From Devosia sp. (GTDB lineage: Bacteria > Pseudomonadota > Alphaproteobacteria > Rhizobiales > Devosiaceae): a DNA stretch of 64,000 nt. The DNA lies in assembly GCF_017744655.1 (NCBI RefSeq), contig NZ_JAGIAW010000002.1, positions 186,001 to 250,000 of the forward strand. The letters are read 5' to 3'. Every line of letters begins with the position of its first letter. The stretch's first letter is position 1. Positions 31,987 through 52,110 of this stretch are shown here, in pieces. A program made the position numbers and the translations under genes. Under the pieces are notes generated by a model that did no database searches, was not told where the DNA came from, and worked only from the letters and a program-made list of their open reading frames with translations.

Positions 31987-32009
31987 GCTGGGCCGTCATT
32001 CTTTCTCCG

Positions 32010-32041
32010 AGACCGGCGCATGTTAGCGCCGGTCTTGGGTT
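32010..32041. terminator. Terminator between convergent ABC operon and alpha/beta hydrolase gene
   Basis: Perfect 10-bp stem AGACCGGCGC (32010-32019) / GCGCCGGTCT (32026-32035), loop ATGTTA, followed by TGGGTTT. It is 24 bases after one stop codon and 14 bases beyond the other, so it can serve both. Confidence 0.8.
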
Positions 32042-32048
32042 TGGCCTG

Positions 32049-32897: not shown

Positions 32898-32929
32898 TCC
32901 AGTCTCCTCTTAGTCGTGAAATCCAGCGA

Positions 32930-34093
32930 TCAGCCGATGATGCATTCGTCGATGGTGCGCGGATGGCTGGTCAGCCGCTCCGGCCCCGTCTCGGTGATCA
33001 GCACCGTGTCGGAAATGCGATAGCCGCCATGGCCGGGGATATAGAGGCCCGGTTCGGACGAGACGATCATGCCCGGCTGCAGCGGGCTGTCGTCGCCATC
33101 GGCGATCCACGGCGGCTCATGCAGCCAAATGCCGATGCCGTGGCCCTGGCGGTGGCGCAGATATTGCGCCATGCCGGCCTCGCGAATGACATCGAGACAG
33201 ATGCGATTGGCTTCCGAGCAGGGGCGGCCGGCGATCAGTGCATCTGTGCCGATGGCCTGGGCGCGGGTAGCGACTTCGAAATAGCGACGCTGCTCGGCCG
33301 TGGGCTCGCCCATGACGAAGGTGCGTTCGCTCTCGGCAAAGCGGCCGCCAACGGCGCAGCCGAGTGAGAGGATGAAGGTTTCGCCGGGCTTGACCCGTTC
33401 TGCCGAGGGCAGGCCATGGGGAAGGGCGGCATTCTTGCCGGTATAGACGAGACCGCCGGCCAGCATCTGGCCGACGACGACGTCTTCGTGTTCGGCATAC
33501 ATGGTCTTGGTGCCGAAACTGGTGACGTGGCGGGCGAGTTCGGCCTCGCTGGGGAGTGGCGTGCCGGCGGCAAGGGCGTCGCAGATAAGCCGGAGGCCCG
33601 CGTCTACCATGGCGTCGGAAATGCGTGCCGCTTCGCGGTGAAGGGCGATCTCTTCGGGGAATTTGATGAGCCGCGCGTCCTCGACGATTTCGGACATGAC
33701 CCAGGTGGCATTGGGCGCAAACTGCTCGAACTTTCTGACCCGGCCAACAGGCGTCGTCGGCGAATAGGCGATGCGGCCGGTGGGGTTCAGTTTTGACAGC
33801 AGGATCGAGAAGGCGTCCTCGATGCCGGGATATTCGGGATAGACGACGAATTCGGCAGCGGTGTTCTGCTTCTCGGCGTGGTCGGCTTCGAGCGCCGGGA
33901 CGAGAAGAATGCAGTCCTTTTCCGTCAGCCAGATCGCGGCAGGTCGTTCATTGGGGAAATGGAAGAAGCCGCTGAGATAGGCGACGTGGTGGTGGTCGTC
34001 GACCAGGAGGCCGTCAAACCCCTGGGCGGCCATGCGGGCGCGCAGTCCATCCTGAATGCGCGCATAGGTGTCGCGCGAAAGGCGTTGCTTCAC
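32930..34093 (-). CDS. M24 (creatinase/aminopeptidase P fold) hydrolase lacking canonical metal ligands
   Basis: 387 residues: N-terminal creatinase domain (1-145) and C-terminal pita-bread domain. Of the five usual dinuclear-metal ligands of M24 peptidases, only the His of GHGIG (His318) and the Glu of SSEPGLY (Glu347) are kept. The LIDxG Asp reads LSLG (Ser243), the DITRT Asp reads ESERT (Glu254 or Ser255), and the RIED Glu reads RISD (Ser361). The His of PHGLP (His226) is kept, as in creatinase, the metal-independent member that hydrolyses a guanidino/ureido C-N bond. So a metal-free amidohydrolase is more likely than an Xaa-Pro peptidase. Starts 4 bases after the permease stop, in a transporter operon controlled with hydantoinase genes. 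Confidence 0.82.
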   Translation of the reverse strand: MKQRLSRDTYARIQDGLRARMAAQGFDGLLVDDHHHVAYLSGFFHFPNERPAAIWLTEKDCILLVPALEADHAEKQNTAAEFVVYPEYPGIEDAFSILLSKLNPTGRIAYSPTTPVGRVRKFEQFAPNATWVMSEIVEDARLIKFPEEIALHREAARISDAMVDAGLRLICDALAAGTPLPSEAELARHVTSFGTKTMYAEHEDVVVGQMLAGGLVYTGKNAALPHGLPSAERVKPGETFILSLGCAVGGRFAESERTFVMGEPTAEQRRYFEVATRAQAIGTDALIAGRPCSEANRICLDVIREAGMAQYLRHRQGHGIGIWLHEPPWIADGDDSPLQPGMIVSSEPGLYIPGHGGYRISDTVLITETGPERLTSHPRTIDECIIG

Positions 34094-34096
34094 GGC

Positions 34097-34984
34097 TCAG
34101 TTCTCCCGGGTTTTTGGATTGCGGGCGTCGTTGTAGGCGATCGACATCAGGGTCGAAGAGACGACCAGAAGAAGAATGGCCAGCGAGGGGAAGAGCGTGC
34201 ACCACCATGCGACGGTGAGTGCGCCGGAGCGCTGGGCATTGAAGAGGATCTTGCCCCAGGACCAGCTTTCCGGATCGCCAAGGCCGAGGAAGGAGAGGCC
34301 AGCTTCGGACATCACGGCGCGCGAGGCGGTGAGCACCACTGAAACGACGATGATCGGCGCAACGGCGGGCAGCAGGTGGCGGGTCATGATCCAGAAATGC
34401 GAGCCGCCAATGGTGCGGGCCGCATCGACATAGGGGAGGCGGGTGACCGACAGCGCCTGCGAGCGGACGATGCGGGTCACCTCGGGCCACGAGAAGAGCG
34501 CGATGACGACGACCAGCGTTGTGACCGAAGGGCCGACGAGCGCTGCCACGAGGATCATCAGCGGCAGCACGGGCAAGGCGAGGGAGACGTCGACCATCAT
34601 GGAGATCGGCGCATCGAGGCGTTTGGCATAGGCGGCGAGGATGCCCAAAGCCACGCCGATGAGAATGGCGAGGAAGGACGAGGCGAAGCCGATGATCATG
34701 CTGATGCGGGTGCCCCAGATGACCTGGGCCAGCACGTCACGGCCGAGATCGTCGGTGCCGAAGGGATGGGCGGCGGAGGGTGGCATCAGGATTTCGATGC
34801 CGTAGCCGCTGGGGAATTCTGCCAGCAGCGGGGCAAGGAGGGCGATGAGCACCATGATCAGGATGACGGCGGCCGAACCCATGCCGAGCGGATTGCGCCG
34901 GAAGGCACGCCAGGTGCGCTGAGCGGGCTTGAGGTCGGCTGGGGCCAGGGTGGGCGCCGTCGTAGAAGTATTGGTCATGGTCAT
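34097..34984 (-). CDS. Dipeptide-type ABC transporter permease (DppC-like), third system
   Basis: 295 residues. A Thr/Ala/Pro-rich leader of about 30 residues, first membrane segment from about 40 (GSAAVILIMVLIALLAPLL), AHPFGTDDLGRDVLAQVIWG, five further segments and EAA loop AARTIGGSHFWIMTRHLLPA. This LGTDxxGRD form differs from the LGTTRxGxD of the other two systems, so it is another subfamily. ATG 34984 overlaps the preceding stop by one base (minus strand TGATG); ATG 34978 is possible. Followed by the M24 gene. Confidence 0.92.
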   Translation of the reverse strand: MTMTNTSTTAPTLAPADLKPAQRTWRAFRRNPLGMGSAAVILIMVLIALLAPLLAEFPSGYGIEILMPPSAAHPFGTDDLGRDVLAQVIWGTRISMIIGFASSFLAILIGVALGILAAYAKRLDAPISMMVDVSLALPVLPLMILVAALVGPSVTTLVVVIALFSWPEVTRIVRSQALSVTRLPYVDAARTIGGSHFWIMTRHLLPAVAPIIVVSVVLTASRAVMSEAGLSFLGLGDPESWSWGKILFNAQRSGALTVAWWCTLFPSLAILLLVVSSTLMSIAYNDARNPKTREN

Positions 34985-35943
34985 CAGGCGCGCACCCGCG
35001 GGTCCAAGAGCCCGTAGGCGATGTCGGTGAGGAGATTGGCAATGACCACCGTGGCGGCGAGCAGCACGAAGGCGCCCTGCAGCACAGGGAAATCGAGCTG
35101 GCCCACGGCCTCGTAAATGGCGCGGCCGACGCCGGGATAGGCGTAGATGGTTTCGGTGAGCACGGCGCCGCCGACGAGGAACCCGATCTGCAGGCCGATC
35201 AGGGTCGTGGTGGGGAGGAGCGCGTTGCGCAGGGCGTGCTTCCAGATGACCTTGTTTTCGCGCGTGCCCTTGGCGCGGGCGAGGTCGCAATATTCTTCGC
35301 CCAGAGCTTCGATCAGGGTGGCGCGCAGGGTCAGCACATAGGAGGCGAGTTGCGCCAGAACGAGCGTAAAGCTGGGCAGGATCAGGTGGTGCACGACCGA
35401 GAGATAATAGGAAACACCCGTTAGCCCCGATTTGACGGCCCCGCCTATGGGGAACCAGCCGAGCATGAGGCCGAGGGTGTAAAGGAGCAGAATACCGAGC
35501 GAGGGAACGAAGAGCGATTGGCCGACGACGCCGGTGATCTGGACGACCTGATCGACCCAACCGCGGGCACGGGTAGCCGCCAGGACGCCAAGCGGCACGC
35601 CGAGGATCACCGTGAGAAGAAGCGCCGACCCTGTAAGAAGGAGCGTCCACGGGAGACGCTCCATCAAGACTTGGCTCACCGGCTGGCTGCGCAGGAACGA
35701 GACGCCCAGATTGCCCTGAACGAGCTCGCGCAGATAGGCGAAGTACTGGACCGCCAGAGGGCGGTCCAGTCCGTACAGCTCAAGCTGCGTCTGACGGATT
35801 TCCTCGGTCATGCCTGGGCCGGCGACAGCCAGCACCGGGTCACCCGGCAAAAGCCGGACGAGGAAGAAAGTAACCGTCACGGCGAACCAGAAGGTCACCA
35901 ATCCACGTATCAAACGTTGCAGAAAGTAGCCGGTGAGATGCAC
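34984..35943 (-). CDS. Dipeptide-type ABC transporter permease (DppB-like), third system
   Basis: 319 residues. Starts YFLQRLIRGLVTFWFAVTVT, then VRLLPGDPVLAVAGPGMTEE and the family periplasmic segment YGLDRPLAVQYFAYL, with EAA loop DLARAKGTRENKVIWKHALRN and end GLLDPRVRA. Six membrane segments. 20 bases after the binding-protein gene. Couples with the DppC-like protein; the two ATPases are encoded divergently at 37671-39645. Confidence 0.92.
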   Translation of the reverse strand: MHLTGYFLQRLIRGLVTFWFAVTVTFFLVRLLPGDPVLAVAGPGMTEEIRQTQLELYGLDRPLAVQYFAYLRELVQGNLGVSFLRSQPVSQVLMERLPWTLLLTGSALLLTVILGVPLGVLAATRARGWVDQVVQITGVVGQSLFVPSLGILLLYTLGLMLGWFPIGGAVKSGLTGVSYYLSVVHHLILPSFTLVLAQLASYVLTLRATLIEALGEEYCDLARAKGTRENKVIWKHALRNALLPTTTLIGLQIGFLVGGAVLTETIYAYPGVGRAIYEAVGQLDFPVLQGAFVLLAATVVIANLLTDIAYGLLDPRVRA

Positions 35944-35963
35944 GTTATCAGGTCTCTACTGGA

Positions 35964-37577
35964 TCAGTTCTTGGGCTTGACCGAAGCCAGCGACAGCGGA
36001 TTGACCAGCGAGAGCAGGTCGGAAGGCTGGATCACGAAACCTTCCCACTTGTCGCTGTTATAGGCGAACTGGAAGGTCTGGTAGTAGAGCACGTTGTCGT
36101 AGACCTTTTCCGAGATCAGCTTTGCAGCTGCCTGGACAGGAACCTTGACGGCTTCCGGCGTGGTTGCAGCCTGGGCTTCGTCGATCAGCTTTTCGAGGTC
36201 GGGGTCCGAGATCGAAGCGTAGTTGATGAAGCCGCCGGTGCGGTAGGCAAGGCCGAGATAGGCGGCCGGCTCTTCCATCACCGCCCAGTTGCCGGCGTAG
36301 ATGTCAAAGTCCTTCTCGCGGCCACGGGCCAGGTACGTGTTGCGCTCGAGACCGGTCAGGTTGATCTTGATGCCGGCCTTGGCAGCGCCGTCTTTCATGA
36401 TCTGGGCCCAGTTGGCGATATCTGCCGCGCTCTGTTCGTAAAGGAGATCGAATTCGATCCCGTCGAAGAAGCCGTCGCCATTGGCGTCGGTATAGCCGGC
36501 ATCGGTCAGGATCTTCTTGGAAAGCTCCGGATCGAAGGCATATTCCTTAGCTTCCGGATCGGCCCAGTAGCTCAGGACCGGCGACACGGCCGAGGAATTG
36601 GTCGAGGTTGCAAGGCCCTGCATGGCGATGGTGCGGATGGCTTCGTAGTCCACGGCATGAGCCAAAGCCTGGCGCACTTCGAGCTTGGAGAGCACTTCGT
36701 CGGTCATGTTGTAGAGCACGTGCGACCAGCCGAGCGATGGCGCCTGGGCGATCGTAATGCCCGGCTGACCCTGCAGCGTGCGGGCAATCGGGGCCGGCAG
36801 CGAGTTGGCGATGAGATCGAGGTCACCGGCGCGGAGGGCGAGGGCCTGGGCGTTCACATCGGGGAACACGCGGAATTCGACTTCATCGACGGTCGCCTTG
36901 CCCGCTTCAACGAGCGGGTAATTGTCGACGGCGGTCAGCAGGTAGTTCTGGCCGGCATTGACTTCGGTCAGGATGAAGGGACCAGCGCTCACCCAATCCT
37001 TGTCATTGGCGAAGGCTGCGACCTGGCCGACTTCGGGGAAGGCGTGCTTGGGAACGATCGGCATCCAGAAGCCGATATTGGTCAGGAAGGTCGAGTCCGG
37101 ACGGCTGAGCGTGAATTCGACGCGGGTCGGCGACACTGCCGTGGCGCTGACGAAGGAAGGAATGAGGCCTGCCGTCACGCCGATCTTTTCGGTGGTGACT
37201 GCGGTGACGGTGAAGACGATGTCGTCAGCCGTGAAGGGCGTGCCGTCGTTCCAGGTCATGTCGCCGCGGATGTCCATCCAGGCGGTCAGGCCGTCCTCGG
37301 AATAGCCCCATTCGGTGGCGACGTAGGGATCCTTGGAGCCCTTGTCCGTCATCTGCATCAGACGCGGATACATCAGGTTCGTGACCCAGGTATCCGAACG
37401 GCTATTGCCGACGAGCGGGTTGAAATTGACGACGTCGGCGGTGGTGCCGATGACGATACGGCTGGCTGCGTCCTGCGCTGAAGCAGGGCTCAGGCTGGCC
37501 ATCCCCATGGCCATAACGACCCCGCCCATCAGGACGGAACGACGGGTCAAAGCATTCCTAACATTGCGGATCATCAT
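35964..37577 (-). CDS. ABC transporter substrate-binding protein, family 5, third system (Tat-like signal)
   Basis: 537 residues. N-terminus with LTRRSVLMGG followed by a hydrophobic stretch and SPASAQ: a twin-arginine pair in a T-R-R-x-V-L context suggests Tat export, though Sec cannot be excluded. Mature part: VVNFNPLVGNSRSDTWV, DMTWNDGTPFTADDIVFT, WMPIVPKHAF, FRVFPDVNAQALALRAGDLDL, and a DANGDGFFDG loop. These are peptide-binding-type motifs, clearly different from the two oligosaccharide-type paralogues. First gene of the operon; two ATGs (37577, 37574). The operator-like palindrome at 37635-37647 lies 58 bases upstream. Confidence 0.88.
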   Translation of the reverse strand: MMIRNVRNALTRRSVLMGGVVMAMGMASLSPASAQDAASRIVIGTTADVVNFNPLVGNSRSDTWVTNLMYPRLMQMTDKGSKDPYVATEWGYSEDGLTAWMDIRGDMTWNDGTPFTADDIVFTVTAVTTEKIGVTAGLIPSFVSATAVSPTRVEFTLSRPDSTFLTNIGFWMPIVPKHAFPEVGQVAAFANDKDWVSAGPFILTEVNAGQNYLLTAVDNYPLVEAGKATVDEVEFRVFPDVNAQALALRAGDLDLIANSLPAPIARTLQGQPGITIAQAPSLGWSHVLYNMTDEVLSKLEVRQALAHAVDYEAIRTIAMQGLATSTNSSAVSPVLSYWADPEAKEYAFDPELSKKILTDAGYTDANGDGFFDGIEFDLLYEQSAADIANWAQIMKDGAAKAGIKINLTGLERNTYLARGREKDFDIYAGNWAVMEEPAAYLGLAYRTGGFINYASISDPDLEKLIDEAQAATTPEAVKVPVQAAAKLISEKVYDNVLYYQTFQFAYNSDKWEGFVIQPSDLLSLVNPLSLASVKPKN

Positions 37578-37634
37578 GGTCTCGCTGTTGAATTGGCACC
37601 CAAGTGTTGCGATGCGCTCAAAGCCGTGTCAAGG

Positions 37635-37647
37635 ATTGTCGTACAAT
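37635..37647. promoter_or_regulatory. Candidate GntR/FCD operator in the divergent transporter promoter
   Basis: ATTGTCGTACAAT, in which TTGT-CGT-ACAA fits the TNGTNNNACNA operator consensus of FCD-type GntR regulators. It lies between the binding-protein gene (minus) and the first ATPase gene (plus), 24 bases from the latter's start. Identical copies occur twice at 45815-45844 beside the GntR gene. Confidence 0.75.
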
Positions 37648-37670
37648 TTCTGAGCGAGGTAGTGTCACTG

Positions 37671-38669
37671 ATGACGAAACAGGCAGACGAGCGCCCAGTG
37701 CTTTCGGTGTCAGGGCTCGATGTCAGCTTCAGCACCATGCGCGGTGACGTGAAAGCGGTCAGCGATGTGTCGTTTGACCTCAAGCGCGGCGAAGTGCTGG
37801 CGCTGGTTGGAGAATCCGGCTCGGGAAAATCGGTTTCGACCCGTGCCGTGATGGGCATTGTCCGCGGTAATGCGACGATCAATGCGCGGCGCATGGAGCT
37901 GGCGGGGCATGACCTGCTGACTGCTGACGAGGAGCAGAAACGCAAGCTGCGCGGGCGTGTGATTAGCCTGGTGTTCCAGGATGCGCTCTCGGCGCTCAAC
38001 CCGGTTCTGTCGATCGGCGACCAGCTTGGCGAGCTTTATCGCACCCATCTCAACGTCTCGAAAAAGGAGGCGCGGGAGCGCTCGATCGAGCTGTTGCGCT
38101 CGGTGCATCTGGCCTCGGCCGACAAGCGCATCGACGACTATCCGCACCAGTTTTCCGGCGGCATGCGGCAGCGCATTCTCATCGCCTCGGCCATTGCGCT
38201 GAAGCCCGAAGTGCTGATTGCAGACGAGCCGACGACGGCGCTTGATGTAACCGTCCAGGCCCAGATTCTGGACCTTTTGGACGAGCTGCGCGACGAATTG
38301 GGCATGGCCATCCTGCTCATTACCCACGACCTTGGCGTCGTGGCGCGCATGGCTGAAAGAGTGGCCGTGATGTATGCCGGGCGGCTGGTGGAAACCGGTA
38401 GTGTCGACGACATTTTCCGGGCGCCTTCGCACCCCTATACGGCTGCGTTGATGGCTTCGGCGCCACGGATCGAGACGGTGGAAAAGCTCGAGCCGATCAA
38501 GGGTTCGCCACCCAATCTGATTGCGCCACCACCGGGCTGCGCCTTCAATCCGCGCTGCACGCATCTGGGCGAATTGTGCACCAAGGTTCGCCCGGAACTT
38601 ATCGGAGATCTTCCGGGGCGTAGCCGCGCCTGTCACTATCCGCTGGTGGAGACCGCCCATGTCGGCTGA
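37671..38669 (+). CDS. Dipeptide-type ABC transporter ATP-binding protein (DppD-like), third system
   Basis: 332 residues. Walker [10 protein letters not shown] (final Thr/Ser position Ser then Val), [16 protein letters not shown], signature [10 protein letters not shown], Walker [16 protein letters not shown]-loop LITHDLG, and a C-terminal oligopeptide/HPY tail [19 protein letters not shown] with Cys residues that in some homologues bind Fe-S. ATG 37671 is chosen over an upstream start because it follows the operator and a GAGGT sequence and gives the family N-terminus. Overlaps the next gene by 11 bases. Confidence 0.92.
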
Positions 38670-39645
38670 ACCGATCCTTGAAGCCCGTGGCCTCTCCAAG
38701 ACTTTTCGTGCCGGTGGCGCCGTGTTCGGCAAGCCGTTCCAGGCTGTTAAAGACGTTAGTTTGGCCGTTATGCCGGGTGAAACGCTGGCCGTTGTGGGCG
38801 AGTCTGGCTGTGGCAAGTCCACTTTGGCGCGCATGCTGGTGGGGCTGGAAACGCCCGACGAAGGCGAAATCCTCTTCCGTGGCGCTCCGATCAAGCGGGA
38901 TCGCGCACTGCGCCGGCAAGTGCAGATGGTGTTTCAGGACCCCTATCTGTCGCTCAATCCGCGCCGCACCGTGCTCGATATCGTGGCCGAACCGCTCGAC
39001 GTGCATGGGCTCGCCAAGGGCGCGGCGCGCACTGCACGGGTTGAAGAACTTTTGACGGCAGTGGGTCTCGATCCCGCCGCGTCGAGCCGTTTTCCACATG
39101 AATTTTCAGGCGGGCAGCGTCAGCGTATCGGTATTGCCCGTGCATTGGCGGCCGAGCCCTCGGTTCTGGTCTGCGACGAGCCGGTTTCGGCGCTCGACGT
39201 GTCGGTTCAGGCGCAGGTGGTGAACCTGCTGATCGACCTGCAGAAGCGACTCGGCATTGCGATCATCTTCATTGCCCACGATCTCGCCGTGGTGCGCGCC
39301 ATCTCCCATCGGGTGATGGTGATGTATCTCGGCCGTGCGGTTGAAGAGGGCGGTGCCGATCGTGTGCTGGTGACGCCAAATCACCCCTATACCGTGGCAC
39401 TGCGTGGCTCGGCCCTGGAGCCTGATCCTGCGCGGGCCCGTCTCGCGCGTGGCAAGGCGACGCGTGGCGAGCCACCCAATCCGGTCAATCCGCCGCCCGG
39501 TTGCCGGTTTAATCCGCGCTGCCCGCGGGTGACGGACGAGTGCCGCACGAATGAGCCGCAAATGAAGCGGCATACCGATGCGGCGGGCCTCAGCGGAGTT
39601 GCCTGCTACCATCCAGTGCAAGAAGCGGAAGCACTCAGCGCCTAG
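38659..39645 (+). CDS. Dipeptide-type ABC transporter ATP-binding protein (DppF-like), third system
   Basis: 328 residues. Walker A GESGCGKST, MVFQDPYLSLNPRRTV, signature FSGGQRQRIG, Walker B VLVCDEPVSALDVS, H-loop FIAHDLA, and a tail with NPPPGCRFNPRCPRVTDEC. The tail distinguishes this pair from the ATPases of the other two systems, which lack it. ATG 38659 lies inside the end of the preceding gene. Followed by a strong terminator. Confidence 0.92.
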   Translation: MSAEPILEARGLSKTFRAGGAVFGKPFQAVKDVSLAVMPGETLAVVGESGCGKSTLARMLVGLETPDEGEILFRGAPIKRDRALRRQVQMVFQDPYLSLNPRRTVLDIVAEPLDVHGLAKGAARTARVEELLTAVGLDPAASSRFPHEFSGGQRQRIGIARALAAEPSVLVCDEPVSALDVSVQAQVVNLLIDLQKRLGIAIIFIAHDLAVVRAISHRVMVMYLGRAVEEGGADRVLVTPNHPYTVALRGSALEPDPARARLARGKATRGEPPNPVNPPPGCRFNPRCPRVTDECRTNEPQMKRHTDAAGLSGVACYHPVQEAEALSA

Positions 39646-39652
39646 AAAACAG

Positions 39653-39685
39653 AAAAGGCGGCCGGAGCGATCCGGCTGCCTTTTT
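39653..39685. terminator. Bidirectional terminator between ATPase gene and M20 peptidase gene
   Basis: AAAAGGCGGCCGGA (39653-39666) / TCCGGCTGCC plus TTTTT (39671-39685), loop GCGA. A-rich on the left and T-rich on the right, so it can terminate on both strands in the 55-base gap between convergent genes. Confidence 0.88.
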
Positions 39686-39700
39686 CATGCGTGAAATGGT

Positions 39701-41062
39701 TCAGACCCGGCCGAGCCGGTCGAGAAGCGCGGCGCCGGTGCGGATGCCTTTGAGGAACAGGTCGATTTCCATGTTCTCGTTGGGCGCGTGGTTGGCTTCG
39801 TCGGCATTGGCATAGGGCATGACGAACGCCGGGACGCCGAGCACCTTGGTGAAGACATAGTCTGGGAGGCTGCCGCCGGCCGATGGATAGACCAGCGGCT
39901 GCTCGTTGCGGGCTTCGACAATGGCTTCCTGGATGAGCTTGCCCCAGGGATCGTCCAGCGGCGTGCGTGAGGGCAGCATGGAGCCATAGGTGATCACTTC
40001 CACTTCGGGCGCATGCTTGGCGACGTGGGCTTTGACGCAGGCATAGACGTGTTCGGGCGTCATGGCTTCGACGAGGCGGATGTCGCATTTGGCGACGGCC
40101 TCGCAGGGGAGGACCGACTTGGTGCCCGGCCCGCCATAGCCGCCGTGAAGGCCATTGATGGTCAGCGTCGGATGGAACATCAACCGGTCCCAGAACGGAC
40201 GATCGGCGGGTTCATCGAGACGCGTCAGGCCCATATTGGCCATGTATTCCGCCAGATCGAGCGGCAGCGCCTTGGTCGCGGCGATATCGGCTTCGGTCGG
40301 CGGAATGATCTGGTCGTGAAGGCCATCGATGGTGATGCGGCCATCGGGTGTCTTCATGGTCGAAAGCAGATGCACCAGCGTCCAGATGGCGTTGGGCATG
40401 ACGCCGCCATAGTTGCCCGAATGGGCATCGCGGGCAGCGGTGCGGACGCGCAGCTCGAACGAGGTCATGCCGCGCACGCCATAGGTCAGCGTCGAATTGC
40501 CGGATTCGTGCAGGGGACCATCGGCGGTGACCACGAAGTCGGCCTTGAGCCGATCCTTATAGTCCCTGACAAAGTCGGCGATCTGCGGCGAGCCGATCTC
40601 TTCCTCGCCTTCGAGGAGGAAGATCACGTTGCAGGGCAAGGTGCCATGCACCTTGAGGTGCGCCTCGATGGCCATGATCTGCGCAAAGTGCTGGCCCTTG
40701 TTGTCGCCAACGCCGCGGGCATAGATGCGCCCGTTGCGAATGGTCGGCTCGAAGGGCGGGCTTTCCCACAATTCCAGCGGATCGGGCGGCTGCACGTCGT
40801 AGTGGCCGTAGAGCAGCACCGTGGGCTTTGCCGGATCGACATTGTAGCGGGCGAGGACGAAGGGATGGCCCTTGGTCGGGATCGCCTCGACTTCCATGCC
40901 TAGGTCGCCCAGCATTTTCACGAGAAGTTCTGAGACTTCGCGGATGCCGATATTGTGGGCGCTGATGGATGGGTTGCGCACATAGTCGATCAGGCGGGCG
41001 ATATATTCGTCGTGCCGGGCTTCGATATGGGAGAAGACCGGGCTCAGCGTGGGCGAGGTCAT
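39701..41062 (-). CDS. M20 family dipeptidase
   Basis: 453 residues without a signal peptide. M20A/M20F layout with all metal ligands: His87 (GHYDVQPP), Asp120 (GVGDNKG), catalytic/ligand Glu pair in EGEEEIGS (E153-E155), Asp181 (TADGP) and His425 (NHAPNE); a dimerisation lid domain lies between about 200 and 320. The family hydrolyses dipeptides or N-carbamoyl/acyl amino acids in the cytoplasm. ATG overlaps the hydantoinase A stop (ATGA), so it is translationally coupled to it: an M20 enzyme with HyuAB is the classical pairing in which a ring is opened and the N-carbamoyl product is hydrolysed. A true dipeptidase role remains possible. Confidence 0.9.
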   Translation of the reverse strand: MTSPTLSPVFSHIEARHDEYIARLIDYVRNPSISAHNIGIREVSELLVKMLGDLGMEVEAIPTKGHPFVLARYNVDPAKPTVLLYGHYDVQPPDPLELWESPPFEPTIRNGRIYARGVGDNKGQHFAQIMAIEAHLKVHGTLPCNVIFLLEGEEEIGSPQIADFVRDYKDRLKADFVVTADGPLHESGNSTLTYGVRGMTSFELRVRTAARDAHSGNYGGVMPNAIWTLVHLLSTMKTPDGRITIDGLHDQIIPPTEADIAATKALPLDLAEYMANMGLTRLDEPADRPFWDRLMFHPTLTINGLHGGYGGPGTKSVLPCEAVAKCDIRLVEAMTPEHVYACVKAHVAKHAPEVEVITYGSMLPSRTPLDDPWGKLIQEAIVEARNEQPLVYPSAGGSLPDYVFTKVLGVPAFVMPYANADEANHAPNENMEIDLFLKGIRTGAALLDRLGRV

Positions 41063-43104
41063 GCTGCTTCCTTGGTGAGGATGATACCGCCCGAGGCATG
41101 CACCTTGCCCTGCCAGCCGGCGGCGACGAAGGTCGTGGTGTCGAGCTGGGTCAGGATGACGGGACCGGCAAAGGTCGCACCGGCGCCGAGTTTTGCGCGA
41201 TCGAGAACGGGTACATCGACCTGCTTGCCATTGATGCTGACGGCCGTGTGTTCTTCCGGCGCCGGCGTTGTGCCGGGCGCGAGTTCCACAGCGGGCGGCA
41301 CGGCGGCAAGGCCCCTCGCATGAACGCGCAGGGTGACGAGTTCGATCTGCGCGCCGAGATTGAAGCCGTAGAGCGCCTTGTGGGCGGTCTGGAAATTGGC
41401 TTCGACTTCAGCACGATTGGCGGCATAGGCGACGGCGATTTCGCCACCCTGTCCCGCATAGCGCATCAGCGCCACGCGTTCGATGACACGGGCTTCGGCG
41501 CCAACATCTTCCTCATCGAGCCAGGCTTTTGCCTGCTCTTCGAGTTCGGCAATGATCGGCTCGGTCGCCGTCGGGTCCATGGCGCCGGGAATGGCCATGG
41601 CGCGAGAGAATTCCGACTTGAGATCGGCGGCGAGGAGGCCATCAGCGCAGAGCACGCCGGGGGCAGGGGTAATCAACACCCTCTTGATACCGAGAAGATC
41701 CGCGAGGGCGCAGCCATGAAGGGGGCCGGCGCCGCCAAAGGGCACGAGGGTGAAATCACGCGGATCGTGGCCGCGTTCGACCGAGACGACGCGCATGGCG
41801 CCGACCATGTGGTTGTCGGCAATGGCGAGAATGCCGCGGGCGGCGGTTTCGAGATCGAGCCCGAGTGGTTCGGCAATGGTCATCACCGCGCGCTTGGCCG
41901 CTTCGACATCGAGCACCATGCTGCCGCCGAGGAGGCGGGCCGGCAACTGGCCGAGGGCGACATGGGCGTCGGTGACGGTCGGCTCGGTGCCACCATGGCC
42001 GTAGCAGGCCGGACCCGGACGGGCGCCGGCGCTTTCGGGGCCGACAGTAAGAGCGCCGTCCTTGATGCGGGCGAGCGAGCCGCCGCCAGCGCCGATGGTG
42101 ATCATGTCGACCATGGGTAGGGCCAGCGGCCATTCGCCGACCGCGCCGTGCTGAGTGAGGCCGATCTGGCCGCCCTTGATGAGGCAGATATCGGCCGACG
42201 TGCCGCCGATATCATTGGTGATGATGTCTTCGATGCCGCAGGCGGCAGCCGCGGCGCGGGCGCCGACGACGCCGGCAGCGGGGCCGGAAAGAGCGGTGAG
42301 GGCCGGGGCGACGCGGATTTTCGGGGCGCCGGCAACGCCGCCATTGGATTGCATCAGCATCAACGGCGGGGTTGCGCCCTCGTCGTCGAGGCGTTTTTCG
42401 AGGTTTTTCACATAGGTGGTGACGCCCGGCATGACCGTGGCGTTGAGCACGGTGGTGAGGCTGCGCTCATATTCGCGCACCACGGGCAGCACGTCGCTGG
42501 AGACGGTGACGGCGAGACCCGGCAGTTCCTCACGCAGGATTTCGGCGACGCGCCGCTCATGCGCCGGATTGGCATAGGCATGGATGAGGCAGACGGCGAC
42601 GGCCTGCACGTTCATGCCTCGGATCTTTTCGGCGGCGGCGCGAACGGTCGCTTCATCGAGCGCTTCGAGCACGGCGCCGCCAGCAGCGATGCGTTCGTCG
42701 ATCTCGACAATGCGGCTCGATGGCACCGGGGGAACCGGCTTGACCCAGGTATAGAGGTTCGCCTTGCGCGGAATGTCCTGACGGCCGATCGCCAGCACGT
42801 GGCGGAAGCCGCGCGTGGTGACGAGCGCAGTGCGCGCGCCCTTGCCTTCAAGGATCATATTGGTGGCAACGGTCGTGCCGTGCAGCACCTGATCTAGATC
42901 GGCAGCCGAAGCACCGGCCTGCTGCAGGGCAAGGCGGATGCCGTTGAGGAAGGCTTCCGATGGATCGGAAGGGATGGATGGAGTCTTGGCGCGCCAGGAG
43001 CGGCCGGCGCCGTCGACCAGCGCGACGTCGGTAAAGGTGCCACCGATATCAACGGCAACGGCGAGATTGGTTGGGTTTTCCGTGGCCATATCAGGCGAGC
43101 TCAT
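41059..43104 (-). CDS. hyuA: Hydantoinase/oxoprolinase subunit A (ATP-binding)
   Basis: 681 residues. N-terminal ATPase fold with VDIGGTFTDVALVD, LHGTTVATNMILEGKGA, EIDERI, and the glycine-rich NDIGGTSADICLI and GAGGGSLARI segments of the HyuA/5-oxoprolinase A family. With HyuB it opens hydantoin-type or 5-oxoproline-type rings at the cost of ATP. ATG 43104 is taken (14-base overlap with hyuB); ATG 43089, directly after the hyuB stop, is an equally good start. Overlaps the M20 gene. N-methylhydantoin, hydantoin, 5-oxoproline or acetone-like substrates occur in the family, so the substrate is open. Confidence 0.92.
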   Translation of the reverse strand: MSSPDMATENPTNLAVAVDIGGTFTDVALVDGAGRSWRAKTPSIPSDPSEAFLNGIRLALQQAGASAADLDQVLHGTTVATNMILEGKGARTALVTTRGFRHVLAIGRQDIPRKANLYTWVKPVPPVPSSRIVEIDERIAAGGAVLEALDEATVRAAAEKIRGMNVQAVAVCLIHAYANPAHERRVAEILREELPGLAVTVSSDVLPVVREYERSLTTVLNATVMPGVTTYVKNLEKRLDDEGATPPLMLMQSNGGVAGAPKIRVAPALTALSGPAAGVVGARAAAAACGIEDIITNDIGGTSADICLIKGGQIGLTQHGAVGEWPLALPMVDMITIGAGGGSLARIKDGALTVGPESAGARPGPACYGHGGTEPTVTDAHVALGQLPARLLGGSMVLDVEAAKRAVMTIAEPLGLDLETAARGILAIADNHMVGAMRVVSVERGHDPRDFTLVPFGGAGPLHGCALADLLGIKRVLITPAPGVLCADGLLAADLKSEFSRAMAIPGAMDPTATEPIIAELEEQAKAWLDEEDVGAEARVIERVALMRYAGQGGEIAVAYAANRAEVEANFQTAHKALYGFNLGAQIELVTLRVHARGLAAVPPAVELAPGTTPAPEEHTAVSINGKQVDVPVLDRAKLGAGATFAGPVILTQLDTTTFVAAGWQGKVHASGGIILTKEAA

Positions 43105-44920
43105 CGATATAGGTATTGCGGTGGAAGGGTTTGATGGCCGGACGGTCGGCGCGCAGCTTTGCTGTGGCTTCGACGTCGAGCTGATCGTCTGAAATCATGA
43201 CGCCATAGAAGGTTTTTGCTGCTTCAGCGGTGACGAAACCGCCGCGGACGTCTTCGAGCACGCGTTCGGCCGGGCGATCATAGGGGTGGCCCATGCCGCC
43301 GCCGCCGCCGGTGCGGATGCGCAGGATATCGCCCTTCTTGAGGGCGGTGCCGTCCGAGAGCGGCGGGATCTTGCGCTCTTCGGGCGTGCCGGGATTGACG
43401 ACGATTGAGCCGCCGCCGCCGGACATGCCGCCGGCATAGCCCCAGGGTGGGTTCTTGACGCCGTCGATGCGGATGGCGAGGAGCGCTTCATCGGCGAGGA
43501 TTTCATATTCGCGGATGATGCCGGTGCCGCCACGGAAGCGGCCGGGGCCGCCGGAATCGGGCACGACGCCATATTGGCGCAGGCGGATCGGATAGCCGCC
43601 TTCGAGGAATTCGACGGGATAGTTTTCCTGCGCCACGAAATAGACCGCGTCGATGCCATCGGCAAAGTCGCGGGCGCCATAGCCGACGCCGATGCCGTCA
43701 GCGAGGAGGAACGGCTTTGGCGTGCCGGTTTCTTTGCCGAAGGTTCCGCGCATGATGGTGACGACATAGGCCGAATGCGCCGCCGGGGCGCCACCCTTGC
43801 CGCGGTTGACGAGGCCGTTGAGCACGGCAAGCATGCGCATCATGGTGAGGCCACGCATGCCGAGCGGAGCGGGGAAACGCGGCTGGACGATGGAGCCTTC
43901 GCGCAGGCGCACTTCATCGATGGCGAGCGGGCCACCGGCATTGACCACCTGGCTGGGGTCGCCGCCGAGGAAATAGAGCCCCAGCGCCATGCCGGGCACG
44001 CCCTTGTTCATGATCAGGTTGACCGGGCCGGGCGCCTGGTCGTCGCTTTCGGTCGCATCGAAAATGAAGCGATCTTCGCCATTGGCGCCCTTTTCGCGGG
44101 TGATGGCGAAGCGCAGGCTGAACGGACCATTGCCGTGGCCGTCGCTGTCGATCTGGTCGGAGAACTTGTAGGTGCCGTAATCAAAAGTTTCGGCGAGGCG
44201 GCGGCGCACGAGGGTGCGCGTGCGGTCGAGGAGTTGGGCGAGAGCGTCGGAAACCGTATCGGCGCCGTGGCGTGCGACGACTTCGGCAACGCGAGTGACG
44301 CCGAGCTTCACCGAGGCCATGAGCGCGGACATGTCGCCTTCGCTCTGGGCCGGGAAGCGCGAATTGCGGTGGAAGATGGCGAGGGTTGCTTCGTTGACGA
44401 CGCCGGCATCGATCAGCTTGGTCGGCGGGATGATGATGCCTTCCTGATAGATGGAGGTAGCATCGGGGCTGATCGAGCCGGGGTGCAGGCCGCCGATATC
44501 GGCAAAGTGGGCCCAGCTCATCACGAAGGCGCAGAGGCGGGTGCCATGGAAGACCGGCGCCAGCAGCACCTGGTCGTTCGAATGGGTCACGGCGCCCTTC
44601 GAGCCATAGCAGTCATTGTACCAGTAGAGATCGCCCGGCTTCATGGTTTCGCGCGGAAAATGCTCGAAGACTGGCGAGGTGAGATCACCGAAGATCGGGA
44701 CCATCGAACCCACAGCCATGACGCCGCGCTCGTCGAAGAGGGCAGTATAAAAGTCTTTCTTTTCGCGGATGAAGGCGGAAATGGCCGTGCGCTCGATCAG
44801 CGCTTCCATTTCGCGCTGGGTGGCCATGATCGCCCCGCGGATGATCTCCAACGTCACCGGATCGCAAATGGGGGCAGTATCCGGCGCCAGGGCCGGCATG
44901 GCGGATGAGAGCGGTGTCAT
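43091..44920 (-). CDS. hyuB: Hydantoinase/oxoprolinase subunit B
   Basis: 609 residues. Family motifs: DPVTLEIIRGAIMATQREME at the start, FDERGVMAVGSMVPIFG, WYNDCYGSKGAVTHSNDQVL, AHFADIGGLHPGS, and the C-terminal GGPGRFRGGTGIIREY and RTGGGGGMGHPYDRP. ATG 44920 has GGAAGG upstream. A longer open frame into the GntR gene has no homology and is discarded. It follows the regulator gene by 52 bases in the order gntR-hyuB-hyuA-M20, all one transcription unit. Confidence 0.92.
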   Translation of the reverse strand: MTPLSSAMPALAPDTAPICDPVTLEIIRGAIMATQREMEALIERTAISAFIREKKDFYTALFDERGVMAVGSMVPIFGDLTSPVFEHFPRETMKPGDLYWYNDCYGSKGAVTHSNDQVLLAPVFHGTRLCAFVMSWAHFADIGGLHPGSISPDATSIYQEGIIIPPTKLIDAGVVNEATLAIFHRNSRFPAQSEGDMSALMASVKLGVTRVAEVVARHGADTVSDALAQLLDRTRTLVRRRLAETFDYGTYKFSDQIDSDGHGNGPFSLRFAITREKGANGEDRFIFDATESDDQAPGPVNLIMNKGVPGMALGLYFLGGDPSQVVNAGGPLAIDEVRLREGSIVQPRFPAPLGMRGLTMMRMLAVLNGLVNRGKGGAPAAHSAYVVTIMRGTFGKETGTPKPFLLADGIGVGYGARDFADGIDAVYFVAQENYPVEFLEGGYPIRLRQYGVVPDSGGPGRFRGGTGIIREYEILADEALLAIRIDGVKNPPWGYAGGMSGGGGSIVVNPGTPEERKIPPLSDGTALKKGDILRIRTGGGGGMGHPYDRPAERVLEDVRGGFVTAEAAKTFYGVMISDDQLDVEATAKLRADRPAIKPFHRNTYIDELA

Positions 44921-44972
44921 CAAAAGCCTTCCAGAGAGAAAAGAAGAGAAAGTATCGGGAGCGTGCGCGGCA

Positions 44973-45692
44973 CTATTCATCCCGGTCCATATGGCGGAGC
45001 ACGGCGTCGGCGGAGCGACGCACATAGATCCGAGTGGCTCGCTCGGCGGCGGCGATGTCGCGGGCGGTGATGCCAGCGATAATGGCGCGCACGCCCTCCA
45101 TGCCGGTTTCGAGCTGGCCCGGCTCGTCCATGGCGTAGATGCGGAGCATGTTGACGCGCGAGCGGAGCTGATCGAGCATTTCAGCAGCGATCTGGTTATC
45201 CGCGACATCGGTCATGAAGCGCAGGAATTTCGACATGGTTTCTGCCATGCCAACCTTGTCGCCGTTCGAACCGGCTTCGAGGAGCCGACGGCCGAAATCC
45301 TGGGCTGCGGCAATATCTTCGTCCGTGGCGCAGGCAAGAAAGCTGCGCACGGTGATGGCTTCAAGCTCGGTGCGGATTTCGTAGATTTCGTGGACGTGTT
45401 TTCGCGTCAGCCGGGCAACGCGGAGGCCACTGTGCGGGATGACATTGACCAGCTTTTCCGCTTCGAGCCGGCGCGCGACTTCGCGCACCACAGTGCGGCT
45501 GATGCCGAAGGCTTCGCAGAGTTCGCGTTCGGTCAGGCGTGTATCCGGAGCGATGCGACCTTCCATGATGGCGGTGCGGACGGAATCAAAAACCCGATCG
45601 CGGGCGAGCTGGCGCGTTTGCGTGCTCTCCTCCGCCAGCTCATCGGCCATGTGCGATGCATCAACCTGAAAGATTCTACGCAAGTCGCTCAT
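44973..45692 (-). CDS. GntR family (FCD subfamily) transcriptional regulator
   Basis: 239 residues. N-terminal winged helix (about 30-95): VFDSVRTAIMEGRIAPDTRL, TERELCEAFGISRTVVREVARRLEAE (shown in part: FGISRTVVREVARRLEAE), LVNVIPHSGLRVARL. C-terminal all-helical FCD ligand domain with EIYEIRTELEA. The FCD group senses small carboxylates and binds TNGTNNNACNA sites; two perfect fits lie just upstream at 45815-45844 and a third in the transporter promoter at 37635. ATG 45692 is used; a TTG at 45710 would add six residues. It is probably the autoregulated repressor of this locus. Confidence 0.9.
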   Translation of the reverse strand: MSDLRRIFQVDASHMADELAEESTQTRQLARDRVFDSVRTAIMEGRIAPDTRLTERELCEAFGISRTVVREVARRLEAEKLVNVIPHSGLRVARLTRKHVHEIYEIRTELEAITVRSFLACATDEDIAAAQDFGRRLLEAGSNGDKVGMAETMSKFLRFMTDVADNQIAAEMLDQLRSRVNMLRIYAMDEPGQLETGMEGVRAIIAGITARDIAAAERATRIYVRRSADAVLRHMDRDE

Positions 45693-45814
45693 TAGTATCG
45701 GTCGCCCCAAGGGAAAATGGGTGGGTCATCCTGCATTTGGCCGTCTTGGTCAAATCGGTGCGACGGCGTGTTGGAATGACTGTAACGAGGGTGTTTCGCA
45801 AAGCCTAGCGGAAA

Positions 45815-45844
45815 ATTGTCGTACAATCCGGATTGTCGTACAAT
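45815..45844. promoter_or_regulatory. Tandem GntR/FCD operators between the regulator and the M28 gene
   Basis: ATTGTCGTACAAT at 45815-45827 and again at 45832-45844, centre-to-centre 17 bases. The gap 45711-45892 is the divergent promoter region for the gntR-hyuBA-M20 operon and the M28-like gene. Confidence 0.8.
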
Positions 45845-45892
45845 TTATCTTGGGGCATCGTGGGCCGTCACTTTTTGTAGAGAGGGTTCAGC

Positions 45893-47617
45893 ATGCTCGA
45901 CACGGCCATCAAAAACGCCATCGCCCAGGTCAATGCCGACGCGGCATGGCCACTGGTGGAAGCCTTTTCCACCATGCCGCGCTGGAAGCCGGAAGACGTC
46001 GAAGCCTCAGCCCACGACATCGCACGGCGCCTTGGAGAGCTTGGCGTCCCGGTCGAAATGCTCGAAGCCTCGCTCTATCTCTCCATTCCATATGAGGCAT
46101 CGGTCGAAGCCAATGGCAAGACCTATGCCTCCAAGCCTCCCGCCTATTCGCTGAGCTGCCCGGAAGGCATGAGCGGCGTGCTGCACCATGTGCCGGGAGC
46201 ACTAGCCGCCAGCGTCGGCAGCTTTTACGAGAAGAACCGGGACGAAGCCGCGGCCGCCGAAGAGCGTATTCGCGGCAAGATCGTGCTGACGGATGGCTTT
46301 GCCTCGCCCAACAAGGTGCTCGAATTTCAGGAGAAGGGCGCTATCGGCGTTATCGCCGTCAATCCGGGCGTCGACCGGCACTGGGGTATCTGTTCGTCGG
46401 TCTGGGGTTCGCCCGATCTCGATGGTCTGCCGCGCAAGCCGGTGATCCCGGTTGCCGTCGTCAACAATCCCGACGGACAGGAACTGATCGCGCTGGCCAA
46501 GGCTGGTGGTAGCGTCACCATCAAGACCCGGCTCGAAGAGGGCTGGTTCAAGTCCATCGTGCCGGTGGTCAATGTGCCCGGCACGGTCGAGCCGGAAAAG
46601 TTCGTGCTGCTCGCCGGGCACTACGACAGTTGGGACGTGGGCGTAGGCGACAATGCCACCGGCGACGCCGCCATGCTCGAAATCGCTCGCGTGCTCTGGC
46701 ACAACCGTGGCGATCTCCGCCGCTCGGTGCGCATCGCCTGGTGGCCGGGCCACTCTACTGGCCGCTATGCCGGCTCGGCCTGGTATGCCGATGCCTTCGC
46801 GCTCGATCTCGACGAGAACTGCGTCGCCCAGGTCAATTGCGACAGCCCTGGCTGCCGTTGGGCCGACGTCTATGAAAATGTCGCGGTGATGAGCGAGGCC
46901 AATGGCCTTTGCACCGATGTCATCCGCGAGGTTGCTGATCTGCCGTTCCATGGCGAACGTCCGCTGCGCGCCGGCGACTATTCCTTCAACAATATCGGGC
47001 TTTCGAGCTTCTTCATGCTGTCTTCGACCATGACAGTCGAGAAGCGCAAGGAGATGAACTATTACACGGTCGGCGGTTGCGGCGGGAACATTGCCTGGCA
47101 CACCGAAAACGATCTGATGGACATTGCCGACCGCGACATTCTCATTCGCGACATCAAGGTCTATCTCGCCGGCATCATGGCGGTGGCCAATGCACCGGTC
47201 TTGCCGTTTGACTGGCGCGAGACCTCAGCCGAGTTCAAAGCCACATTGGAAAAATACCAGAAGGCGGCGGGTGCCGATGCCGCCTTGCTCGATCCCGTCG
47301 CTTCTGAACTTGCCGGCCTAAGCGCTTCGCTCGACGCTTTCTATGCCGGTATTGCGGACGGCACGGTGGCAGAGGCCCGGGCCAATGCGGCGATCCAGCA
47401 GCTCGCCCGCATCCTCGTGCCGCTCAACTATACGCGTGGCCCACGCTTTACCCACGATCCAGCCCTGCCGGTGCCTGGGCTCCCCACGCTTTCCGTGGCG
47501 AGCGAGCTTGGGACGCATGGGCCGGAAACCATCGGTTTTGCCCGTACCCAGCTTATGCGTGGTGCCAATCGTACCGCTGCGGCGCTGCGCCAGGCCGCGC
47601 GCCTGCTGGCAATCTGA
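45893..47617 (+). CDS. M28-like metallopeptidase-fold hydrolase with PA domain (altered active site)
   Basis: 574 residues, no signal peptide. An inserted PA domain (about 120-215: RIRGKIVLTDGFASPNKVLE, GAIGVIAVNPG) precedes the M28 core: His243 in AGHYDSW, Asp253 in GVGDNATG, Asp317 in NCDSPG, His403 in AWHTEND. The canonical Glu-Glu pair (general base and second-metal ligand) is replaced: WWPGHSTGRYAGS with Gly286-His287. His could still bind metal, but peptidase chemistry would differ. It is preceded by two operators of the neighbouring regulator and has GAGAGGG before ATG 45893. It likely handles the same compound class as the HyuAB/M20 enzymes. Confidence 0.85.
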   Translation: MLDTAIKNAIAQVNADAAWPLVEAFSTMPRWKPEDVEASAHDIARRLGELGVPVEMLEASLYLSIPYEASVEANGKTYASKPPAYSLSCPEGMSGVLHHVPGALAASVGSFYEKNRDEAAAAEERIRGKIVLTDGFASPNKVLEFQEKGAIGVIAVNPGVDRHWGICSSVWGSPDLDGLPRKPVIPVAVVNNPDGQELIALAKAGGSVTIKTRLEEGWFKSIVPVVNVPGTVEPEKFVLLAGHYDSWDVGVGDNATGDAAMLEIARVLWHNRGDLRRSVRIAWWPGHSTGRYAGSAWYADAFALDLDENCVAQVNCDSPGCRWADVYENVAVMSEANGLCTDVIREVADLPFHGERPLRAGDYSFNNIGLSSFFMLSSTMTVEKRKEMNYYTVGGCGGNIAWHTENDLMDIADRDILIRDIKVYLAGIMAVANAPVLPFDWRETSAEFKATLEKYQKAAGADAALLDPVASELAGLSASLDAFYAGIADGTVAEARANAAIQQLARILVPLNYTRGPRFTHDPALPVPGLPTLSVASELGTHGPETIGFARTQLMRGANRTAAALRQAARLLAI

Positions 47618-47623
47618 AGCAAG

Positions 47624-47661
47624 GACTTGGCTGGGCATGCGCCCGGCCAAGTCTATTTGTT
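47624..47661 (+). terminator. Terminator after the M28-like gene
   Basis: GACTTGGCTGGGC (47624-47636) / GCCCGGCCAAGTC (47641-47653), 13 pairs with one G-U, ATGC loop, then TATTTGTT. Confidence 0.85.
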
Positions 47662-47748
47662 GCCACGGCTGGGCAGGATGGGGCAGCCGTTGTAAATGGT
47701 TCGTCCCTTGTCGGCCCTGAGGCCCGACCTACCACTCCTGGACGTATC

Positions 47749-48774
47749 ATGACCTATCGCGCTGCCCCCGGTCGCTACGAGACCATGCAATATCGCCATG
47801 CCGGTCGCTCCGGCCTGAAACTGCCCATCATCAGCCTCGGCCTCTGGCAGAATTTTGGTGGCGCGCGGGACTATCCTTCGGCCTTCGAAATGCTCGGTGC
47901 CGCCTTCGATGCAGGGATCACCCACTTCGATCTCGCCAATAATTACGGTCCACCTCCCGGCTCAGCCGAAGAATTGTTCGGGCAGGTGATGGCACGCGAT
48001 TTCAGGCCCTATCGCGATGAGCTGATCATTTCGTCCAAGGCCGGCTATCAGATGTGGGACGGCCCCTATGGCGAATGGGGGAGCCGCAAGAATCTAATCG
48101 CTTCCGCCGATCAGTCGCTGAAGCGCCTCGGCCTCGACTATGTCGACGTCTTCTATTCGCACCGCTTCGATCCCAAGACGCCGCTCGAAGAAACCATGGG
48201 CGCGCTGGCAACGCTCGTCGCTCAAGGCAAGACGCTCTATGTCGGCATTTCCAATTATCCGGAAGCCGAGACGCGCGCGGCCCATGCCATTCTTAGAAAT
48301 CTCGGCGTGCCCTGCATCCTGCATCAGCCGAGCTATTCCATCCTCAATCGCTGGATCGAGGACGACAAGACGGTCGATGCCTGCGGCGAATTGGGCATCG
48401 GCATGATCGCCTTTTCACCCCTGGCGCAGGGCGTGCTGTCGGGCAAATACAATAGCGGCGATACCGAAGGTGCTCGCGGCACGAGCAACAATCCGTTCCT
48501 CAAGGCCGACCGGATCAAGCCCGAAACGCTCGATGCCGTGGGCAAGCTTGCGGCTATCGCCAGGGCGCGCGGCCAGACCCTGCCGCAAATGGCACTAGCC
48601 TGGGTGCTGCGCCGGCCCGAACTGACCTCGGCGCTCATCGGCATCCGGACCCTGGGGCAATTGCAGGACAATCTCGGTGTGCTCAACAATCTGAGCTTTG
48701 CGACGGAAGAAATCGCCGCCATCGATGCAGCGACGGCCAATGGACTGACGCCGGGGCATCCCCGCTGGTGGTAA
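47749..48774 (+). CDS. gpr: Aldo/keto reductase, YghZ/Gpr type (L-glyceraldehyde 3-phosphate reductase-like)
   Basis: 341 residues, (beta/alpha)8 AKR fold of family AKR14 type. Catalytic tetrad visible: Asp61 (FDLANNYG), Tyr66, Lys97 (SSKAGY), His138 (YSHRFD). NADPH-binding end: SPLAQGVLSGKY and ALIGIRTLGQLQDNL. The GPPPGSAEELFG insert and YQMWDGPYGEWGSRKN segment are the marks of YghZ, which reduces L-glyceraldehyde 3-phosphate and methylglyoxal-like aldehydes. Monocistronic, 131 bases after the M28 gene and separated from it by a terminator. Confidence 0.9.
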   Translation: MTYRAAPGRYETMQYRHAGRSGLKLPIISLGLWQNFGGARDYPSAFEMLGAAFDAGITHFDLANNYGPPPGSAEELFGQVMARDFRPYRDELIISSKAGYQMWDGPYGEWGSRKNLIASADQSLKRLGLDYVDVFYSHRFDPKTPLEETMGALATLVAQGKTLYVGISNYPEAETRAAHAILRNLGVPCILHQPSYSILNRWIEDDKTVDACGELGIGMIAFSPLAQGVLSGKYNSGDTEGARGTSNNPFLKADRIKPETLDAVGKLAAIARARGQTLPQMALAWVLRRPELTSALIGIRTLGQLQDNLGVLNNLSFATEEIAAIDAATANGLTPGHPRWW

Positions 48775-48829
48775 AACGCCACTGGTGTGTCCGCGAGCCT
48801 GGGCTTTTGGACACACCGCATGGTCGACA

Positions 48830-52091: not shown

Positions 52092-52110
52092 GGGGTCTGG
52101 CCTTTCAAAA

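Follow-up and report, generated by a model that had tools for sequence, protein, structure and literature searches.

What, if anything, holds together the transporter, hydantoinase-type and peptidase genes that lie side by side around a gene for a GntR/FCD regulator in a Devosia genome? The genes occupy part of a 64,000-nucleotide stretch of contig NZ_JAGIAW010000002.1 (positions 186,001 to 250,000; assembly GCF_017744655.1), referred to below as the window. A first-pass annotation of this window proposed that a 13-bp operator sequence, present in two divergent promoter regions, places at least ten genes under joint control. This interpretation is supported by the sequence comparisons reported here: an autoregulated FCD-type GntR regulator very probably binds three sites and controls a conserved cluster of 12 genes around its own gene, gntR. 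The result is a predicted regulon, local, well conserved and of a familiar kind, an instance of ordinary bacterial gene control.

Predicted operator sites in the window and in related genomes

The 13-mer ATTGTCGTACAAT has three exact matches in the window, at 37635-37647 (O1), 45815-45827 (O2) and 45832-45844 (O3), and no others; across the strain's genome (4,412,235 bases in 14 contigs) exact copies are confined to the same three sites, so that the positions first annotated hold the sole copies. O1 lies between the substrate-binding protein (SBP) operon, on the minus strand, and two ATPase genes on the plus strand, its 11-bp core being 58 and 24 bp from the start codons that flank the SBP/ATPase 1 spacer. 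O2 and O3 form a tandem pair in the spacer between gntR and a divergent M28 peptidase gene, their centres 17 bp apart. The core pattern TTGTNNNACAA occurs in the window only at these sites (0.13 expected), and three occurrences were reached in none of 100 shuffles. The 11-mer TTGTCGTACAA has one extra place in the genome, C11:47913, about 150 bp 5' of a response-regulator-like open reading frame (ORF), where the outer A and T are missing and other bases stand instead.

ATTGTCGTACAAT agrees, as initially proposed, with TNGTNNNACNA, a published consensus of the FadR subfamily (PMC2230225), and as far as sequence can tell it is an operator of this type placed near its own regulator gene. No distant targets stand out, because ATTGTNNNACAAT with at most one mismatch occurs at 32 places in the genome, against 40 for the reversed pattern. 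One further perfect ATTGTNNNACAAT, ATTGTGTCACAAT at C13:100019-100031 (L105:6020-6032), has the centre GTC and lies at the start of an ORF that is LuxR-like by eye; it is more likely the site of another regulator than of the gntR product.

Ten genomes with the locus were compared: G000, G084 (L035), G074 (L036, D. riboflavina), G098, G096 (L037), G065 (L038, D. equisanguinis), D. enhydra (L039), G027, G064 and Pararhodobacter (L040). L035, L036 and L038 are equated with G084, G074 and G065 because their sites fall at identical positions. The gntR/M28 spacer holds two sites in all ten, 17 bp apart (18 bp in D. enhydra and Pararhodobacter), and the SBP/ATPase 1 spacer holds one site in nine; the stretch of Pararhodobacter that was read yielded no transporter. 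Sites thus stand at the same places upstream of the orthologues in every genome compared. The core TTGT(ACG/CGT)ACAA is present in 29 of 29 cluster sites, Pararhodobacter included, and the full 13-mer in 28, the exception being a site in G064 in which C replaces an outer A. In D. enhydra and G027 one member of the tandem pair is inverted while its half-sites stay the same, which fits recognition by a symmetric dimer. At the centre, all 29 sites read either ACG or the complementary CGT, though the orientation of the site is free, and these three bases may have a role in binding. G064 also contains an additional TTGTNNNACAA, with centre GCC, at L088:4471, apart from the cluster genes in the stretch read.

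The half-sites leave a footprint in both spacers. When six gntR/M28 spacers are aligned, 19 of the 20 columns in half-sites do not vary, whereas elsewhere the same holds for 20 of 107 ungapped columns (p = 6e-11); across five SBP/ATPase spacers the corresponding figures are 10 of 10 and 49 of 83 (p = 0.008).

The 13-mer also follows the regulator from genome to genome. In a genus set of 75 genomes, a GntR orthologue was called (E <= 1e-50) in eight; the 13-mer is present in all eight (23 matches) and in one of the 67 without an orthologue (Fisher p = 5e-10, kinship not corrected), while a reversed control pattern has one match across the set. All 23 matches, including all three in the strain's own genome, lie at the cluster, a concentration that disposes of random scatter. 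The 24th genus match, in G061, was considered as an operator and rejected: it is a single copy inside a coding sequence, ispG-like by eye. Among 397 genomes sampled from the order, the 13-mer occurs in seven (three copies each in G000 and G027, one each in five others) and the reversed control has eight matches, one each in eight genomes. A same-size order sample yielded the regulator (E <= 1e-45) in three genomes, G000, G027 and G347, the last with a relative at 45% identity and no 13-mer; among 385 genomes of the class, it was found in G000 and, at 40% identity, in G783 only. D. enhydra, which is outside the genus list and has a regulator 76% identical, carries three 13-mers, all at the cluster, and Pararhodobacter sp. 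CCB-MM2 (63% identical) carries two, the tandem pair at the cluster, and no others.

Could the sites nevertheless be accidents, or copies of spacer sequence without a regulatory role? In favour of such a reading, two copies are immediate neighbours, and conservation of the SBP/ATPase spacer is high over its whole length. This account is scarcely credible, however, given the small number of cores expected in the window, and half-sites that are kept although the gntR/M28 spacers are only 49-59% identical in 14 of 15 pairs (79% for the window and L038); it is contradicted by the genome-wide counts, the co-occurrence with the orthologue and the spacer footprint.

The regulator and its relatives

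The gene beside the sites, gntR (44973-45692, minus strand; 239 aa), does encode an FCD regulator, as first annotated. Its product matches the GntR winged helix-turn-helix domain (PF00392, 7e-18, 64.5 bits against a cut-off of 27) and the FCD domain (PF07729, 2.2e-15, 57.6 bits against 24.3), and the structural model and fold matches agree with this assignment. Orthologues align from the ATG at 45692, most likely the true start and the one originally chosen. The AlphaFold model (mean pLDDT 83.9, pTM 0.62, six sequences) combines a winged-helix part with an FCD helical bundle, is all helical from residue 88 and ends in six C-terminal helices, which we take to be the VanR type. The best fold matches in the PDB are AlkR/VanR (9isw), a GntR protein (7u5q), PmiR (7xp0/7xp1) and McbR (4p9f), at 14-25% identity, and the best sequence matches are 7xp0, 7u5q, 3c7j and 4p9f. 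The C-terminal domain of PdhR (5tpm_B) is matched over 138 columns with a TM-score of 0.84 by target and an rmsd of 2.0 Å. The model offers no usable guide to how the two domains are arranged, because the whole-chain fold matches listed have an rmsd of 11-17 Å.

Many FCD proteins hold a metal through an Asp or Asn together with three His residues (PMC7797058, PMC7674646), a site described for many members and not required of all. The corresponding places here, from a hand alignment to 7xp0, are M153, L157, V201 and Y223, so the usual ligands are replaced, and no His stands at any of the four in the ten orthologues (L037 ends at residue 223); in G027, a His follows the second place (157) by one residue. 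These replacements make a metal-held effector less likely. The protein otherwise resembles the VanR-like branch of FadR regulators (AlkR/VanR 9isw, PmiR, McbR/YncC, Atu1419), with which it shares the GntR and FCD domains and TNGTNNNACNA-type sites beside its own gene; it differs in the replacement of the usual FCD metal ligands, most of which McbR also seems to be without. Suvorova et al. link Gly at position 59 of the helix-turn-helix domain to TGGT sites, in which the TKGT box carries a G/C pair (PMC4494728). In the orthologues, position 59 is apparently occupied by Ser, Arg or Val (mapped by hand) and the site reads TTGT, in agreement with that link.

A different FCD paralogue might occupy the sites, leaving the neighbouring gntR a passenger; the TNGTNNNACNA core is common to the subfamily (PMC2230225). 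This is very unlikely, given that the 13-mer accompanies this particular orthologue in all eight genus genomes, D. enhydra and Pararhodobacter, whereas other genus genomes with up to 27 matches to the regulator at E <= 0.001 (G003, G018) have no 13-mer.

More distant relatives extend the association of regulator and site. Seven loci with relatives at 35-45% identity were examined: plasmids of Methylobacterium currus and Acuticoccus, and G347, G783, G059, G010 and G040. Six contain TTGTNNNACAA, with seven sites in all against 0.33 expected, the centres being CTG, ATG, CAG and CAT. The M. currus site separates gntR from a divergent gene run containing hyuB, hyuA and M20, and the G347 site is located some 280 bp 5' of the matched part of gntR. 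G783 and G059 have theirs about 12 bp ahead of the probable start codon (ATG) of an M28 gene divergent from another ORF. Among 28 loci without a close orthologue (L007-L034), a strict site occurs in three (L007, L029, L033). On our reading, the half-sites would be a trait of this regulator branch and the ACG centre a trait of the close orthologues.

Several observations weigh against binding of all three sites by the gntR product, or against joint control from them. The footprint is weaker in the SBP/ATPase spacer, because that whole spacer is conserved. The genome contains 18 further matches to the regulator at E <= 0.001, any of which would be a candidate paralogue. Among the distant loci, the sites of G010 and G040 are kilobases away from gntR, and Acuticoccus has no strict site, only a near match, which is flanked by M28 and an M20 gene read in the opposite direction. 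A control set of 22 loci with regulators at most 34% identical contains two strict sites against 0.34 expected; these loci are shorter (about 2.5-3.6 kb each, against 19-25 kb for the test loci) and are also above chance, so the core is partly a family trait. Finally, among 100 FadR-subfamily divergons with two sites and a regulator gene, 71 have separate sites, and the shared pairs tend to lie mid-spacer (PMC4494728), while the pair in the window lies at 0.64-0.73 of its spacer, toward M28.

Mode of control

The regulator would act as a dimer on ATTGT-N3-ACAAT at each of the three sites. O2 and O3 would lie across the likely M28 promoter and 5' of gntR-hyuB-hyuA-M20, and O1 in the other divergent spacer, with the SBP-permease-permease-M24-hydrolase operon on one side and the ATPase gene pair on the other; set in these two divergent spacers, the three operators would head all four predicted transcription units. 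Constant spacing between paired sites, from which joint control was inferred in other FadR-subfamily divergons, characterizes the 29 of the 100 double-site divergons that were read as sharing their sites (PMC4494728). The cluster resembles double-site divergons in its close pair of sites, whose spacing hardly varies (17-18 bp) and which separates the regulator gene from a divergent structural gene; the lone site in the other divergent spacer is a further likeness.

A sigma-70-like match, TTGTCG-17-TACAAT, reads toward M28 at 45816-45844 on the plus strand and spans O2 and O3. It is the sole promoter-like match in 31900-48800 (16.9 kb), where 3.6 are expected in shuffles, and so is not significant alone; its weight lies in its position. 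Since O2-O3 contain this match, a bound regulator would cover both the -35-like and the -10-like box, and the regulator is probably a repressor. Repression with autoregulation is likewise the likeliest mode of control: in the absence of inducer the regulator would cover the promoters, that of gntR included, and a small molecule derived from the imported substrate (probably a peptide, lactam or cyclic dipeptide, or a product of it) would bind the FCD domain and bring about release. In D. enhydra, the inverted member of the pair turns TACAAT into GACAAT in the M28 direction.

The transporter side is less clear-cut. A TTGACA box, -35-like and invariant in five aligned genomes, lies toward SBP at 37627-37632 on the minus strand, 2 bp downstream of O1. 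The promoter scan found none toward SBP, the ATPase genes or gntR, which weighs against the proposed scheme, and there is no clear -10 element toward SBP; O1, directly upstream of the box, is also compatibly placed for activation. A sigma-54 promoter at SBP was considered by eye, as TTGACACGGCTTTG in this region resembles a -24 box, and was rejected, the -12 part being variable among genomes. The same regulator on the same sites might therefore activate one or more units, for example SBP from O1, and FCD regulators can activate, as CitO does (PMC4746285), and GntR1/2 at ptsG (PMC2230225). Activation is not the likeliest reading, and with the promoter-like hexamers toward M28 covered by O2-O3, a repressor position, we regard it as improbable.

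Gene cluster, neighbours and likely substrate

Control of at least ten genes, as first proposed, is consistent with gene order, and the conserved unit in fact numbers 12. A tblastn comparison of 18 window genes with the orthologous loci recovered one unit, made up of an alpha/beta hydrolase-M24-two permeases-SBP operon, two ATPase genes, gntR-hyuB-hyuA-M20 and M28. All 12 genes are present in G000, G084, G098, G065, G027 and G064, 11 in G074, nine in D. enhydra and fewer in G096 (for these last three, as far as the available stretch or contig reaches); in the Pararhodobacter stretch, M28, gntR, hyuB, hyuA and M20 only were seen. Gaps within the operons are at most 35 bp, with overlaps, the exception being gntR-hyuB, where the gap is 52 bp provided that hyuB begins with the ATG at 44920, a start picked by eye in a frame that is open.

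Downstream of gntR on the minus strand lie hyuB (43091-44920; hydantoinase B/oxoprolinase subunit, PF02538 at 2.3e-128 on 43091-44908), hyuA (41059-43104; hydantoinase A/oxoprolinase subunit, PF01968 and PF05378), which overlaps hyuB, and a dipeptidase-like M20 metallopeptidase gene (39701-41062; PF01546, PF07687; NCBIfam PRK09104 with 347.9 bits against a cut-off of 327). M28, on the plus strand at 45893-47617, encodes a peptidase with a PA domain (PF04389, PF02225). Genes for two ATPases of an oligo/dipeptide-type ABC transporter follow O1 on the plus strand (37671-38669 and 38653-39645; each PF00005 and PF08352), and the divergent minus-strand operon comprises SBP (35964-37577; SBP_bac_5, PF00496 at 8.8e-72), permease 1 (34984-35943; BPD_transp_1), permease 2 (34097-34948; OppC_N, BPD_transp_1), an M24 Xaa-Pro dipeptidase/creatinase-like gene (32930-34093; PF00557, PF01321) and an alpha/beta hydrolase gene (32049-32897; PF00561) that is proline-iminopeptidase-like, its best NCBIfam match, TIGR01250, falling below the cut-off.

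A terminator-like stem-loop of 14 pairs directly follows M28 (47623-47654, plus strand), and a shorter one follows M20 (39661-39676, minus strand); such matches overall are not enriched (14 found, 11.3 expected). The aldo-keto reductase gene at 47749 was set aside as a regulon member, since it lies beyond the stem-loop at 47623-47654 and is a cluster neighbour elsewhere only in G074 of the nine genomes compared; it is probably outside the conserved unit. A second peptide-type ABC operon (26574-31986), which abuts the cluster and is convergent with it, was likewise set aside, having no operator site. This operon adjoins the cluster in G084 and is absent from the 6.4 kb past the cluster in G027, and G098 and G064 have only diverged ABC genes there. 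In Pararhodobacter, a second, diverged HyuA/M20/M28 set (L040 2-7243; 38%, 29% and 50% identity to the window proteins) adjoins the orthologous set, which retains the tandem operator. Farther along the window, 51297-56940 has the look of a separate amino-sugar cluster that brings its own regulator: it contains genes for a GntR/UTRA regulator and a SIS-domain protein and, as judged by eye, an ORF resembling ROK kinases and genes for a sugar ABC transporter.

HyuA and HyuB together match Pfam Hydantoinase_A, Hydant_A_N and Hydantoinase_B, and by sequence are of the ATP-dependent hydantoinase/oxoprolinase/caprolactamase kind. The metal tetrad of CapB is Asp-His-Asp-His (PMC8453981), and a tetrad of this type is visible by eye in hyuB (KDF, THSND, AHFADIGG). 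In Pseudomonas jessenii, the gene next to those for caprolactamase encodes a CsiR-like regulator (PMC6061476), so that the CapAB cluster likewise places an ATP-dependent two-subunit enzyme of the hydantoinase/oxoprolinase type near a regulator (PMC6061476, PMC8453981). The window cluster differs in its M20, M28 and M24 peptidases and dipeptide-type ABC transporter, and hyuA and hyuB, unlike CapAB, score far below the NCBIfam CapA and CapB equivalog cut-offs (504.5 and 223.3 bits, against 1000 each); the match of the regulator itself to the CsiR model is weak (43.8 bits, cut-off 218).

The dipeptide-type transporter, Xaa-Pro-type M24, proline-iminopeptidase-like hydrolase, M20 and M28 beside hyuAB suggest a cyclic dipeptide, lactam or pyroglutamyl-type peptide as substrate, which is a fair guess and no more. 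A literature search on oxoprolinase-type cyclic-dipeptide hydrolases returned no such cluster in the titles and abstract openings among the matches listed, and we found no paper combining TTGT inverted-repeat operators of the GntR/FadR subfamily with hydantoin genes. More tentatively, and with considerable doubt, we suggest that a branch of regulators in Devosia, Pararhodobacter and, distantly, other Alphaproteobacteria may use a metal-free FCD pocket to sense a cyclic dipeptide or lactam, and may control an ATP-dependent enzyme that opens lactams or cyclic dipeptides, together with peptidases, through operators that double as -35/-10 boxes.

An anonymous run of Devosia genes can now be viewed as a single regulatory unit for which a switch sequence is predicted. 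Any compound able to free the regulator from the 30-bp tandem operator would indicate the substrate of the hydantoinase-type enzyme and the peptidases.

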